Shown: positions 32 to 62,812 of the stretch, piece by piece
How the letters are laid out: each line of letters begins with the position of its first letter
How positions within the stretch are numbered: position 1 is the stretch's first letter
DNA from: Aquitalea aquatica
GTDB lineage: Bacteria; Pseudomonadota; Gammaproteobacteria; Burkholderiales; Chromobacteriaceae
Direction: 5' to 3'
Assembly (NCBI RefSeq): GCF_013911085.1
Contig: NZ_JACERN010000003.1
Coordinates: forward strand, 62,001 to 126,000
Length of the DNA stretch: 64,000 nucleotides
Notes under the pieces: model-generated
Databases searched by the model: none
What the model was told of the DNA's origin: nothing
The model's input: only the letters and a program-made list of their open reading frames with translations
Translations under genes and position numbers: made by a program

Positions 32-484
32 TTAGAGAGTGTTTACAAAGGCAAGAACTTCAGCGGCGTGGCCGGGCACTTTGACCTTGCGCCACTCACG
101 AATAATCATGCCGGCAGCATCGATCACGAAGGTGCTGCGCTCGATGCCCCTTACCTGTTTGCCGTACATGTTTTTCATTTTGATGACATCAAACAGGGTG
201 CAAACCGTTTCCTCCGTATCGGATAGCAATTCAAACGGCAGTTCCAGCTTGGTTTTGAAGTTTTCGTGTGACTTCAGGCTGTCGCGGGAAATACCGACAA
301 TGCTGACGCCTGCGGCAGCAAACTGGCTGTGCAGGTCACGAAAATCCATGGTTTCATTGGTGCAGCCAGGGGTGCTGTCCTTGGGATAGAAGTAAATCAC
401 CAGTGGCTTGGGGGCGGCAGACAGGGAAAGCGTGGTGCCGGCGGTGCCGGACAGGGTGAAGTCGGGGCAGGCGATACCTGACAT
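32..484 (-). CDS. bcp: Thioredoxin-dependent peroxiredoxin, Bcp/PrxQ family
   Basis: About 150 residues with the peroxiredoxin fold. It reduces hydroperoxides in the cytoplasm using thioredoxin or a related donor. The peroxidatic cysteine is C41 in the STPGCTNE motif. The resolving cysteine usually found five residues later in Bcp/PrxQ is missing (the sequence runs GCTNETMDF). Another cysteine, C95 (ETVC), is at the position also conserved in E. coli Bcp, so the protein may act as a 1-Cys enzyme or use C95. The ATG at 484 is chosen because AGGAGT precedes it. The open frame extends upstream to 598 but would overlap the smr gene and lacks family similarity. It lies downstream of trxB-smr on the same strand, a sensible pairing with thioredoxin reductase. 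Confidence 0.93.
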   Translation of the reverse strand: MSGIACPDFTLSGTAGTTLSLSAAPKPLVIYFYPKDSTPGCTNETMDFRDLHSQFAAAGVSIVGISRDSLKSHENFKTKLELPFELLSDTEETVCTLFDVIKMKNMYGKQVRGIERSTFVIDAAGMIIREWRKVKVPGHAAEVLAFVNTL

Positions 485-560
485 GCAAGACTCCTGAAGG
501 TGGTGGTTGATGGGAATGCAACCGCCTTGCTTTGAGCTTAGCGGAAATTTCTTACTATTG

Positions 561-1199
561 TCATCCGGATTCTGAGCCGTATTCCTCGTGCTGGCCACGG
601 CGTATCAGTACCAGCAGCGCGCCGTCTCCCCCCATCTCCTCACTGGCCTGACAAAATGCCAGTACCTCCGGGTGATGACTGAGCCAGGAACGCACCAGTT
701 TTTTCAATATTGGCTGGCCGTTGGAACCAAAACCCTTGCCGTGGATGATGCGCAGGCAAGGGCCGCGCCGACGGGCGCGATGCAAGAATAGCGCCAACGC
801 ATCCTGTGCTTGGTAGCGGTCCATGCCGTGCAGGTCCAGCTGACAGGCTACTGGCCAGTGGCCATTGCGCAGGCGCTTCAGCGTCTGGCTGGGCATGCCG
901 CTGCGACAGAACTGCCCTAGCTGCTCAGCCGGTTCGAACAGGCCAACCATATGGCGCAGCATTTCCATTTCGGAGAGTGTGGAGAGCCGGTGTTGGGCGT
1001 GCCGGTGTTTCGGGTGCGGGCTGGGTTTCTTGGGCTGATGAACATGACGCGGCGGGCTTTTCAGCGGAGTGACATCGCTGAACAGCTGTTTGAAGTCGGG
1101 TTCGGGCGGGGGCGGCGGAGGCGATGCGGGCGCGGCAGACGTGTCACGTTGACGCGTCTGCCGGCGGATTTCCTTCAATGTGTCCTTGAAGGCCTTCAA
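561..1199 (-). CDS. Smr-domain protein (putative nuclease)
   Basis: 212 residues. The N-terminal 70 or so residues are basic and proline-rich with a poly-proline stretch near 27-32, probably disordered. The C-terminal half is an Smr domain with the two signature motifs: LDLHG (121-125) and HGKG (153-156). Stand-alone Smr proteins of this layout (the SmrA/SmrB group) are DNA or RNA endonucleases; E. coli SmrB acts on mRNA at collided ribosomes. Which activity applies here is not visible. The start lies only a few bases after the trxB stop, so the two genes are almost certainly co-transcribed. Confidence 0.9.
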   Translation of the reverse strand: MKAFKDTLKEIRRQTRQRDTSAAPASPPPPPPEPDFKQLFSDVTPLKSPPRHVHQPKKPSPHPKHRHAQHRLSTLSEMEMLRHMVGLFEPAEQLGQFCRSGMPSQTLKRLRNGHWPVACQLDLHGMDRYQAQDALALFLHRARRRGPCLRIIHGKGFGSNGQPILKKLVRSWLSHHPEVLAFCQASEEMGGDGALLVLIRRGQHEEYGSESG

Positions 1200-1203
1200 G
1201 ATA

Positions 1204-2172
<969 letters not shown>

Positions 2173-2272
2173 TTAGGTCGTTGGGTTGTCATTTTAGCAG
2201 CTTTGCCATGACAGGATGGCGCAGGCCGTCTAAACTGATCTGGTAGCATTTGTTGACTTGGGAGGTGAGGGC

Positions 2273-60603: not shown

Positions 60604-61389
60604 ATGAAGCTGAAACCCTGGTGTGCCGTGCTGTTGTCCGCTGTCGCCCTGCAGGCTGGCGCGACGGATTTGAATAATCTGCGTATCGGCATGGATGCCA
60701 CTTATCCGCCGTTCGAGTCGCTCAACCCGGCCGGCCAGATCGTCGGTTTCGAAGCCGATCTGGCCGTGGCGCTGTGCAAGGAAATGAAGGCGCGCTGCAC
60801 GCTGATCAATCAGGACTGGGATGGCATCATTCCTGGCCTGATCGCCAAGAAATACGATGTGATCATGTCGTCGATGACCATTACCGCTGATCGGGCCAAG
60901 GCCGTTACCTTTAGCGAGCGCTATTTCCGCACACCGCAACGCCTGATCGCCACCAAGGGCAGTACGCTCAAGTTCACGGCTGAAGGCATGAAGGGCAAGC
61001 GGGTGGGAGTGCAGCGTGGTACCACGGCTGATATGTATCTGAGCAAGTTCTGGGGGCCACGTGGCATGGATGTGGTGCGCTATGAAGACCAGGACAAAGC
61101 CTATGCCGATCTGGTGAACGGCCGGCTGGATGCCAGCTTCCAGGATGAGTTGCAGGTGGAGGCTGGTTTCCTCAAGAGCGAGCCAGGCAAGGCTTTTGCC
61201 TTTGTCGGCCCCTCCATCAACGGTGACAATGCCGCCGAGCGCGAGGTGCTGGGTTCAGGTGCCGGCATGGCGGTGCGCAAGGAAGACAAGGAGCTGGTGG
61301 CGCGTCTGAACAAGGCGATTGCTGCCGTCCGCGCCAATGGCACCTTCAAGAAACTCAGCACGCAGTATTTCGGCCGCGATATTTACTGA
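60604..61389 (+). CDS. ABC-type amino-acid binding protein (HisJ/ArgT-like)
   Basis: 261 residues. Signal peptide cleaved near QAGA-TD. Family 3 signature GFEADLAVALCKEMKARC, and IIPGLIAKKYDVIMSSMTITADRAKAVTFSERY. Lysine/arginine/ornithine or histidine binders have this pattern. No permease or ATPase gene is next to it. Located 104 bases after the decarboxylase on the same strand, so it may deliver that enzyme's substrate. Confidence 0.93.
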   Translation: MKLKPWCAVLLSAVALQAGATDLNNLRIGMDATYPPFESLNPAGQIVGFEADLAVALCKEMKARCTLINQDWDGIIPGLIAKKYDVIMSSMTITADRAKAVTFSERYFRTPQRLIATKGSTLKFTAEGMKGKRVGVQRGTTADMYLSKFWGPRGMDVVRYEDQDKAYADLVNGRLDASFQDELQVEAGFLKSEPGKAFAFVGPSINGDNAAEREVLGSGAGMAVRKEDKELVARLNKAIAAVRANGTFKKLSTQYFGRDIY

Positions 61390-61445
61390 GCGCTACCCGC
61401 CCTCATCAAGCTGGCCACGGTGGTCGGCGCGGTGAGGGCGCTGGT

Positions 61446-62108
61446 TCAGGCATTGCCCGTACTGTTGTCGCTCTGACTGCTGTCCGGCCTGATCAGCGTG
61501 TAGTCGTTATTGCTGGGCAGGCCGTTCTTCTGCCAGTCGTCTAGCGTGGCCATGATGGCGTCGTGGGTCTGGGTGCTGATATCGGGCAGGCTGCCGCCAA
61601 AAGCCTGCTTGGCCTGGTCAAAGCCCAGTTGCACCGCGTCGCGGATGCTGGCGATCTTGCTGGGATCGCTGCCTATGCCTAGTCGGGCAAAATCCAGAAT
61701 GCGCCGTGCGGTGTTCTTTACACCCAGTTCACCATCTTCCGATACCGCCTTGGTGGCTTCTGCCTTGGTTTGCGGGTCTACCGTCAATTTCTGCTCGCCG
61801 CTGACCACCTTGTTCCATTGCAGCCCCTGTTGCTGCACCAGATTGCCCAGCAGTTTGAGGAAATCGGACACTTGCTGGTTGGACTTGGCCAGCAGCGCAG
61901 AAACATCCACGTTTTGCGTTGCCGCGCTGCCGGGCTTGGCATAGGTCAGTGGCTGGCTGCTGCTGTCGTTCTGGCCCAGGCTGACTACTTCATCCACCGT
62001 CAACGTGCTGCTGCTGATGCTGTCACCGGTTTTGCTATCGGTCAGGGTAGTGCTGCTGAGGTTGGCGTACAGCGACAGGCTGTTGCCCGGAATGCTGCTG
62101 ATGGTCAT
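61446..62108 (-). CDS. Uncharacterised protein with a FliA-type promoter (DUF5610-like)
   Basis: 220 residues from ATG 62108 (AGGAGT upstream). The N-terminal half is Ser/Thr-rich (MTISSIPGNSLSLYANLSS). The C-terminal half is helical: VKNTARRILDFARLGIGSDPSKIASIRDAVQLGFDQAKQAFGG, then SLPDISTQTHDAIMATLDDW. The ARRILDFA ... GFDQAKQAFGG pattern reminds me of DUF5610, with low confidence. No signal peptide. The near-perfect sigma-28 promoter upstream puts it in the flagellar regulon, so a motility or flagellum-exported role is likely. Function unknown. Confidence 0.8.
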   Translation of the reverse strand: MTISSIPGNSLSLYANLSSTTLTDSKTGDSISSSTLTVDEVVSLGQNDSSSQPLTYAKPGSAATQNVDVSALLAKSNQQVSDFLKLLGNLVQQQGLQWNKVVSGEQKLTVDPQTKAEATKAVSEDGELGVKNTARRILDFARLGIGSDPSKIASIRDAVQLGFDQAKQAFGGSLPDISTQTHDAIMATLDDWQKNGLPSNNDYTLIRPDSSQSDNSTGNA

Positions 62109-62168
62109 GAGCGACTCCTGCAGAGAGGAAGGTAGGGCCTGCCTGCAAAGCGGCAAGCTGATGTCTCA

Positions 62169-62195
62169 TTATCGGTCGCTGGCGGGAAAATTTTA
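62169..62195 (-). promoter_or_regulatory. Sigma-28 (FliA) promoter
   Basis: On the minus strand TAAAATTT (62195-62188), exactly 11 bases, then ACCGATAA (62176-62169). The consensus is TAAAGTTT-N11-GCCGATAA; each box differs at one position. It gives a leader of about 50 bases before the ATG at 62108. Confidence 0.8.
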
Positions 62196-62263
62196 GTAAA
62201 AATCAATGTAATAAGGCCGGAGCGCCCAGGGGCTGCTCCGGCCTGGTGACGCAAGCTGATGAA

Positions 62264-62812
62264 TCAGGCAGACAGTTTGCCGGCCCAGGCTTGCAGCGCC
62301 TGCAGCTGTTGTACTACCAGCGCTTGCAGACGTTCGTCTGTCAGGTTGCCCTCGGCGTCAAAACCACCGGCAAAGGCGTTGGCAAAGACTTCCGGCTTGT
62401 TCAGCGGGTGCAGGTCGAGGTATACGCAGGTCTGGCGCAAGTGGTATTGCGCACGTGAAGTCCCCATGCCGCCGCCAGCGCCGACAATCGCCACCGGCTT
62501 GCCGGCCAGCAGTGCGTTGTCCGGCTCACGCGAAGCCCAGTCCAGAGCATTTTTCAGTGCCGGAGCCATGGAATAGTTGTATTCCGGGCAGCCCAGCAGC
62601 AGGGCATCAGCACTTGCCAGCTGTGCCAGCAACTGTTGAACCGCAGCGGGCTTTTCACTGATGTCGCTATTGAAAAAGGGAAGCTGGCTGATGTCGGCGA
62701 TCTCGATGCTCACGCCCGCCGGAGCATGGGCTTGCGCATAGCGCAGCAGGCCCATATTGGTAGATGCGCGACGCAGACTGCCGCAAATGGCCAGAACTTT
62801 CAGTGTGCTCAT
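62264..62812 (-). CDS. NADPH-dependent FMN reductase (chromate/quinone reductase-like)
   Basis: 182 residues, flavodoxin-like fold. The FMN phosphate loop is GSLRRASTN (11-19). The PEYNYSMAPALKNALDW motif and the VAIVGAGGGMGTSRAQYHLRQ stretch define the ChrR/YieF-type quinone and chromate reductase group. It is a soluble two-electron reductase likely used against quinone stress. The ATG at 62812 is at the family N-terminus. Divergent from psd. Confidence 0.93.
   Translation of the reverse strand: MSTLKVLAICGSLRRASTNMGLLRYAQAHAPAGVSIEIADISQLPFFNSDISEKPAAVQQLLAQLASADALLLGCPEYNYSMAPALKNALDWASREPDNALLAGKPVAIVGAGGGMGTSRAQYHLRQTCVYLDLHPLNKPEVFANAFAGGFDAEGNLTDERLQALVVQQLQALQAWAGKLSA

Follow-up and report, generated by a model that had tools for sequence, protein, structure and literature searches.

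A candidate FliA-dependent gene of Aquitalea aquatica, related to DUF5610, that may encode a late flagellar accessory protein

The window considered here is the whole analyzed stretch of 64,000 nucleotides from Aquitalea aquatica (Chromobacteriaceae; assembly GCF_013911085.1, contig NZ_JACERN010000003.1, positions 62,001 to 126,000 of the forward strand), and our subject is a gene on its minus strand (61446..62108) that lies behind a promoter-like sequence of the FliA (sigma-28) type. The gene would encode a divergent protein of the DUF5610 superfamily with 220 residues, a mass of 23.2 kDa and an isoelectric point of 4.6, an annotation that rests on the open reading frame (ORF), the choice of start, the orthologues and the link to DUF5610. 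The preferred start is the ATG at 62108 (stop at 61446), with a Shine-Dalgarno sequence AGGAG (62115..62119) 6 nt ahead of it, when a longer product of 236 residues could begin at TTG 62156, an alternative made less likely by the fact that the ATG is common to the Aquitalea orthologues. No Pfam family passed its cut-off in a scan of the protein, which had rightly been called uncharacterized in a preliminary description made from the letters of the window; weak matches below cut-off (IcmF_helical and similar in Pfam, TIGR02677 and OsmC-like in NCBIfam) were judged to be chance.

Two regions can be distinguished in this protein. Residues 1–60 (61929..62108) start with MTISSI, contain 25% Ser, 13% Thr and no Arg, are probably disordered and form the putative export signal discussed below, while residues 112–197 (61518..61775) form a conserved, mostly helical core of which residues 128–197 align to DUF5610. 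Judged by hydropathy alone, the whole protein contains no Sec-like or membrane segment (top 19-residue value 0.62). The AlphaFold2 model of the whole protein, built on 7 sequences, has a predicted local distance difference test score (pLDDT) of 45 with low confidence over residues 1–128, which is weak evidence of disorder because the alignment is shallow; the core alone reaches a pLDDT of 64 and a predicted template modeling score of 0.52. A Foldseek search of the PDB with this weak core model gave no match at E ≤ 0.001 (best E 2.6).

The promoter candidate occupies 62169..62195 on the minus strand, where TAAAATTT-N11-ACCGATAA (−35 box TAAAATTT at 62195–62188, spacer TCCCGCCAGCG at 62187–62177, −10 box ACCGATAA at 62176–62169) differs from the FliA consensus TAAAGTTT-N11-GCCGATAA at two positions, one in each box. 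The near-perfect match announced in the preliminary description is thus confirmed, and it is the sole place with ≤3 mismatches in a pattern scan of the window, when shuffled windows held 0.12 such matches on average and at least one in 11 of 100 shuffles. Its −10 box ends 60 nt from the ATG, and transcription would be expected to start at about 62162, close to the 62160 given in that earlier description. Farther upstream, a GC-rich hairpin with a T-rich stretch (62215..62243, minus strand; arms GGCCGGAGC and GCTCCGGCC, loop of 11 nt) can be read from the sequence, though not from the terminator scan, whose loop limit it exceeds. This hairpin probably terminates the upstream neighbor, a gene of the NADPH-dependent flavin mononucleotide (FMN) reductase family (FMN_red; 62264..62812, minus strand) that stands outside the unit, and it would thereby divide two transcription units, so that the window unit is probably transcribed alone.

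A match of this kind may arise by coincidence, in which case another sigma factor would transcribe the gene. As a matter of fact, the 4.46-Mb genome holds 25 places with ≤3 mismatches to the FliA pattern, not above the 27 found for a reversed control pattern, so that a lone three-mismatch match is noise. In E. coli, according to one report (PMC4183435), 30 of 52 FliA binding sites lie inside genes and most of these yield no detected stable RNA, which implies that a FliA-like site need not drive a gene. However, only five places in the genome of the window have ≤2 mismatches: two with a single mismatch, before the flagellin gene fliC (L001) and before flgK (L002), and three with two mismatches, among which the window site ranks joint third in the genome behind the fliC and flgK sites. 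The same genome encodes the FliA sigma factor itself (TIGR02479, 283 bits, over cut-off), and no sigma-70-type site was found in 61300–62400. The coincidence is further opposed by the persistence of the site among orthologues despite their differing spacers and leaders, and by the enrichment of the same type of site before distant relatives, both described below. Altogether, we regard it as very improbable, and the genuine dependence of the window gene on FliA, as predicted from these sequence comparisons, as highly probable.

Within the genus, the pattern stands at the proper distance and is kept, and it weakens outside. Orthologues of the window protein share 76–92% identity in Aquitalea (92% in A. 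palustris, 88% in A. magnusonii) and about 41–57% in two other genera, the window-type gene being present in 18 of 61 Chromobacteriaceae genomes and, within Aquitalea, in 9 of 10. All nine gene-bearing Aquitalea genomes, that of the window included, carry a FliA-like site with 1–3 mismatches (14 loci were compared, five of the nine genomes being present twice), and spacer and leader vary around the kept site, as in TAAATTTT-ACCTTCCCGTT-GCCGATAA and TCAATTTT-ACTTCCATCCT-GCCGATAT. In the two other genera, an exact −10 box, GCCGATAA or GTCGATAA, lies near the ATG of 7 of the 9 orthologues. The window subfamily was recovered in 1 of 378 genomes of a phylum sample, namely its own, and so looks rare in Pseudomonadota outside Chromobacteriaceae.

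The core links this subfamily to DUF5610 (PF18433). The preliminary description had called for a search with the DUF5610 model; on its own, the window protein stays under the Pfam gathering cut-off (14.1 bits against 26.4; E 0.068), but the relation is backed by profile comparison. Indeed, hhalign aligned the window subfamily and its clostridial relatives to canonical DUF5610 over 70 columns (probability score 93.8, E 1.7e-7), and still did so without the clostridial rows (91.3, E 9.6e-7). PF18433 matches at E ≤ 0.1 were found in 11 of 17 members of the window subfamily, and the genes of G002, G037, G054 and G059 pass the Pfam cut-off for DUF5610, three of them only with neighboring in-frame matches summed. 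By distant-homology comparison, then, the window protein is a divergent relative of the DUF5610 superfamily. Both have a helical core with a common motif order (RI followed by GF..A and a conserved T) and FliA-like promoters before many members, whereas the window core has two gaps of about 13 and 6 residues and BLAST places the window protein nearer the clostridial relatives than canonical DUF5610. The relative from Lachnospiraceae (L014) shares 38% identity with it across 127 residues, and, starting from it, matches were obtained in 23 of the 245 genomes sampled from its class; in the wider class around Aquitalea, 25 of the 369 genomes sampled carry DUF5610.

The PDB entry 3SJR, titled "Uncharacterized protein" and which we take to be CV_1783 of Chromobacterium violaceum, is matched by A3, the profile of canonical DUF5610 (E 1.6e-7), but not by the window-subfamily profiles at E ≤ 1, and it is not among the best 50 of the 83 Foldseek matches of the weak core model. 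A literature search returned no mention of DUF5610 among the papers covered, and a search on CV_1783 or 3SJR nothing relevant. VF_1491 of Vibrio fischeri, described in PMC3948606 as an unknown protein whose mutant has a tumbling bias, was considered as a candidate relative.

Several long DUF5610 proteins of about 350–440 residues were also observed (L039, L040, L042, L044, L045, L048–L052, L054, L055), with an extra C-terminal region of roughly 200 residues, for which Pfam scans of two of them (L042, L054) returned no family above cut-off. Among plasmid records, a single relative was found, in a stretch without annotated features of a chromosome-sized Acetoanaerobium noterae record, with GCCGATAT before the gene and no well-spaced −35 box, and two canonical DUF5610 members had no match in these records. 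The record in question (NZ_CP154629.1, circular, 2.63 Mb) is filed as plasmid pTPELB2, carries apparent histidine-biosynthesis genes and may be a chromosome.

FliA-like sites also stand before many of its distant relatives. In the wider class, 23 DUF5610 genes were searched over 150 bp upstream at N11 spacing and compared with 500 shuffles, 2 of the 25 loci having been dropped (L041 and L053: start not set; interrupted gene). Sites with ≤3 mismatches precede 4 of the 23 (shuffle mean 0.03) and sites with ≤4 mismatches 8 of the 23 (shuffle mean 0.24, maximum 3), as against 0 of 73 control ORFs, and an exact GCCGAT precedes 9 of the 23 (shuffle mean 0.57) as against 2 of 73. These controls are mechanical ORFs of the same loci, taken longest first from ATG and not checked as genes; a first set of 85 (≤4 mismatches in 0, GCCGAT in 4) was reduced to 73 by removing possible copies of family genes (L100–L105) and repeated ORFs. 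L042 has a perfect consensus and L039 a single mismatch, as has L046, albeit at −152 and hence beyond the 150-bp frame. For the clostridial relatives, where a SigD-type pattern of TAAA and GCCGATA (11 positions) was sought before 23 of 24 genes (L083 had too little upstream sequence), ≤1 mismatch was found in 8 (shuffle mean 0.14, maximum 1; controls 1/116) and ≤2 mismatches in 16 (shuffle mean 1.8, maximum 7; controls 4/116). Closer to the window, in genus g2, which is probably Chromobacterium, the first DUF5610 genes have a site with ≤3 mismatches within 230 bp in 10 of 19 genomes and with ≤4 mismatches in 18 of 19, counts that come from related genomes and carry no shuffle control. In the same scan, which also covered genomes of group g10, L112 lies at the end of its locus and was left unjudged. 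DUF5610 genes stand as a tandem pair in 18 of the 19 g2 genomes (L113–L131), the second gene being shorter (open frames of about 176–207 residues) and divergent. These second genes were not counted, their starts being unreliable; that of L114 has a FliA-like site of its own, read from the sequence as TAAAGTTT-N11-GCCGAAAA at 2002–2028.

The distribution of flagellin points in the same direction. In the class sample, flagellin was detected in 23 of 25 DUF5610-positive genomes against 177 of 344 others (Fisher p 4e-5), and in the clostridial sample in 20 of 23 relative-bearing genomes against 76 of 222 others (p 1e-6), counts and p values which ignore the relatedness of the genomes. Five DUF-positive genomes of the two samples lack flagellin, one of which (G669) has flagellar rod/hook proteins. 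In a few loci the association extends to the neighborhood: the relative adjoins flagellin and a csrA-like gene in L086, lies near flagellin in L087 and, in the clostridial L097 (G542:C2:151000-163000), follows on one strand a FlxA-like gene (PF14282) and a FliD_C-like gene and precedes a gene that reads, from its sequence only, as a response regulator. The preliminary description had assigned the gene to the late flagellar/chemotaxis regulon; its late flagellar half is well supported by the site kept in the genus and its −10 box beyond, by the same type of site ahead of many distant relatives and by the co-occurrence with flagellin in two classes, when nothing in the data shows a role in chemotaxis.

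Several observations weigh against this flagellar interpretation. The other DUF-positive genomes without flagellin (G113, G377, G627 and G649) yielded no rod/hook proteins either, and most of the 20 neighborhoods viewed show no flagellar neighbor. At the thresholds of ≤4 and ≤1 mismatches, 15 of 23 genes are missed in the wider class and 15 of 23 among the clostridial relatives, L043, whose genome lacks flagellin, shows no FliA-like site in the wider-class test, and the canonical DUF5610 genes of group g10 have such a site in 0 of 5 cases (best 5–7 mismatches). Among the orthologues of the two other genera, both boxes taken together at N11 have at least 4 mismatches in 9 of 9 cases, and no clear FliA-like site precedes L025 and L027. 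Finally, flagellin is present in 61 of 61 genomes of the family, of which 16 have neither the window-type gene nor canonical DUF5610, so that a flagellum does not require the gene.

The gene could be a FliA-dependent passenger without a flagellar role, a situation described in E. coli with modA and flxA. Its sporadic occurrence and its distance from flagellar genes in most neighborhoods viewed would suit this idea, and FlxA (PF14282) offers a parallel, by description only, as the product of a FliA-dependent gene that PMC4183435 presents without known function; a FlxA-like gene, as noted, stands two genes before the DUF5610 relative in L097. Against it, the same promoter type and the co-occurrence with flagellin are encountered in two phyla, and the DUF5610 copy of G377, where neither flagellin nor rod/hook proteins were found, is decaying, being interrupted by one in-frame TAG. 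We hold the passenger explanation to be quite unlikely.

It is also of interest to ask where the product of a late flagellar gene would act. The preliminary description had proposed that the Ser/Thr-rich N-terminus without a Sec signal suits export through the flagellar apparatus; composition and hydropathy are in keeping with this, and the evidence for export is circumstantial (the N-terminal pattern, the Ser/Thr-rich composition, the lack of Arg and of a hydrophobic segment). Of 66 family proteins, 35 start with the pattern M, up to two residues and [IVL][NS]x[IVL] (M-x-[IVL]-[NS]-x-[IVL]), as do 7 of 331 other ORFs; after a crude reduction of the family set that leaves close pairs in place, the count is 22 of 50. 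One of the seven pattern-bearing control ORFs is the FlxA-like neighbor in L097, and the two flagellins of the control set do not fit the pattern, which tells against export. Over residues 1–60, Ser, Thr, Asn, Gln, Gly and Ala make up 49% in the family against 36% in controls, and 53 of 66 family proteins are free of cysteine against 60 of 331 controls (judged over their first 220 residues). FlgM of Bacillus starts in a similar way. These features plausibly suit flagellar export, and passage of the window protein through the flagellar apparatus is, in our estimation from its sequence, possible at somewhat under an even chance. If it were exported, it could be likened, by description only, to the flagellum-secreted or co-expressed proteins of Campylobacter, presumably those named Feds and Cia. 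In that genus, non-structural proteins leave through the flagellar export system (PMC5223770).

Alternatively, the protein may be made under FliA and never leave the cytoplasm, as a late regulator, an export chaperone or a modulator of chemotaxis or the motor. A helical core, an acidic character and a size of about 20–23 kDa are shared by many cytoplasmic partners, and by sequence reading the clostridial relative L095 stands directly behind a large receptor-like gene and the clostridial L094 likewise, with a 90-residue ORF between. However, the Ser/Thr-rich start and the recurrent N-terminal pattern resemble those of some exported flagellar proteins, FlgM among them, and neither Pfam nor NCBIfam gave a chaperone or chemotaxis family over curated cut-off for the window protein or for the 17 subfamily members also scanned. 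A cytoplasmic location of this sort appears unlikely to us.

On this basis, the explanation that we favor, and consider likely, is that the window gene is a late, non-essential flagellar accessory gene under FliA whose product would be exported by an N-terminal signal. In the order of class-3 expression, FlgM leaves the cell through the finished hook-basal body and FliA is set free. The window gene would be a separate class-3 unit: once the hook is complete and FlgM is out, FliA-RNA polymerase would transcribe it from 62169–62195, and the exit of FlgM would cause the window protein to appear along with flagellin and the filament cap. The product would belong to the DUF5610 superfamily and be small and acidic, its Ser/Thr-rich N-terminus being probably disordered and its C-terminal core helical; if that N-terminus were a flagellar type III export signal, the protein could act at or outside the growing filament as an accessory, non-essential late component.

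From an evolutionary perspective, the two types of gene seem to exclude each other in Chromobacteriaceae. Among the 61 genomes, 18 have the window type, 27 canonical DUF5610 (strong matches, the ten weak ones being window-type genes) and none both, an absence of overlap with a probability of 1.7e-6 under independence, a value inflated by relatedness; within g10 (13 genomes), 8 have the window type and 5 the canonical one. Since the two types occupy different neighborhoods in the 14 regions compared, this distribution suggests that one type replaces the other in a single functional slot, as opposed to being its allelic variant, and a horizontal acquisition of the window-type gene from Bacillota is possible. 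More tentatively, we propose that DUF5610 and its clostridial sister group form one unrecognized late flagellar family, transcribed by FliA/SigD and exported by the flagellum, in Pseudomonadota and Bacillota, of which the two Chromobacteriaceae versions replace each other. The novelty here would be that the FliA link extends to a domain family without known function in two phyla. If true, this would place DUF5610 (25/369) and the unnamed clostridial family (23/245) in a functional context for the first time. The flagellar components of model species have been studied thoroughly, and that the family was yet overlooked would be explained by PF18433 having been found in none of the 14 named control genomes, E. 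coli and B. subtilis among them.

Two other FliA-like sites of the A. aquatica genome deserve mention. In L004 (G000:C11:42906-45932), a site with two mismatches (1501–1527, minus strand) lies about 170 bp before an ORF (234–1328, minus strand) whose product reads as a carbonic anhydrase carrying a signal peptide. In L005 (G000:C45:156676-159702), TAAAGTTT-N11-GTCGATAT, also with two mismatches, precedes a second uncharacterized ORF of 220 residues (1596–2258, plus strand; GTG start, MKVTPKQN), which has no Pfam or NCBIfam family over cut-off and may, judging from this site, be another FliA-dependent gene of unknown function.
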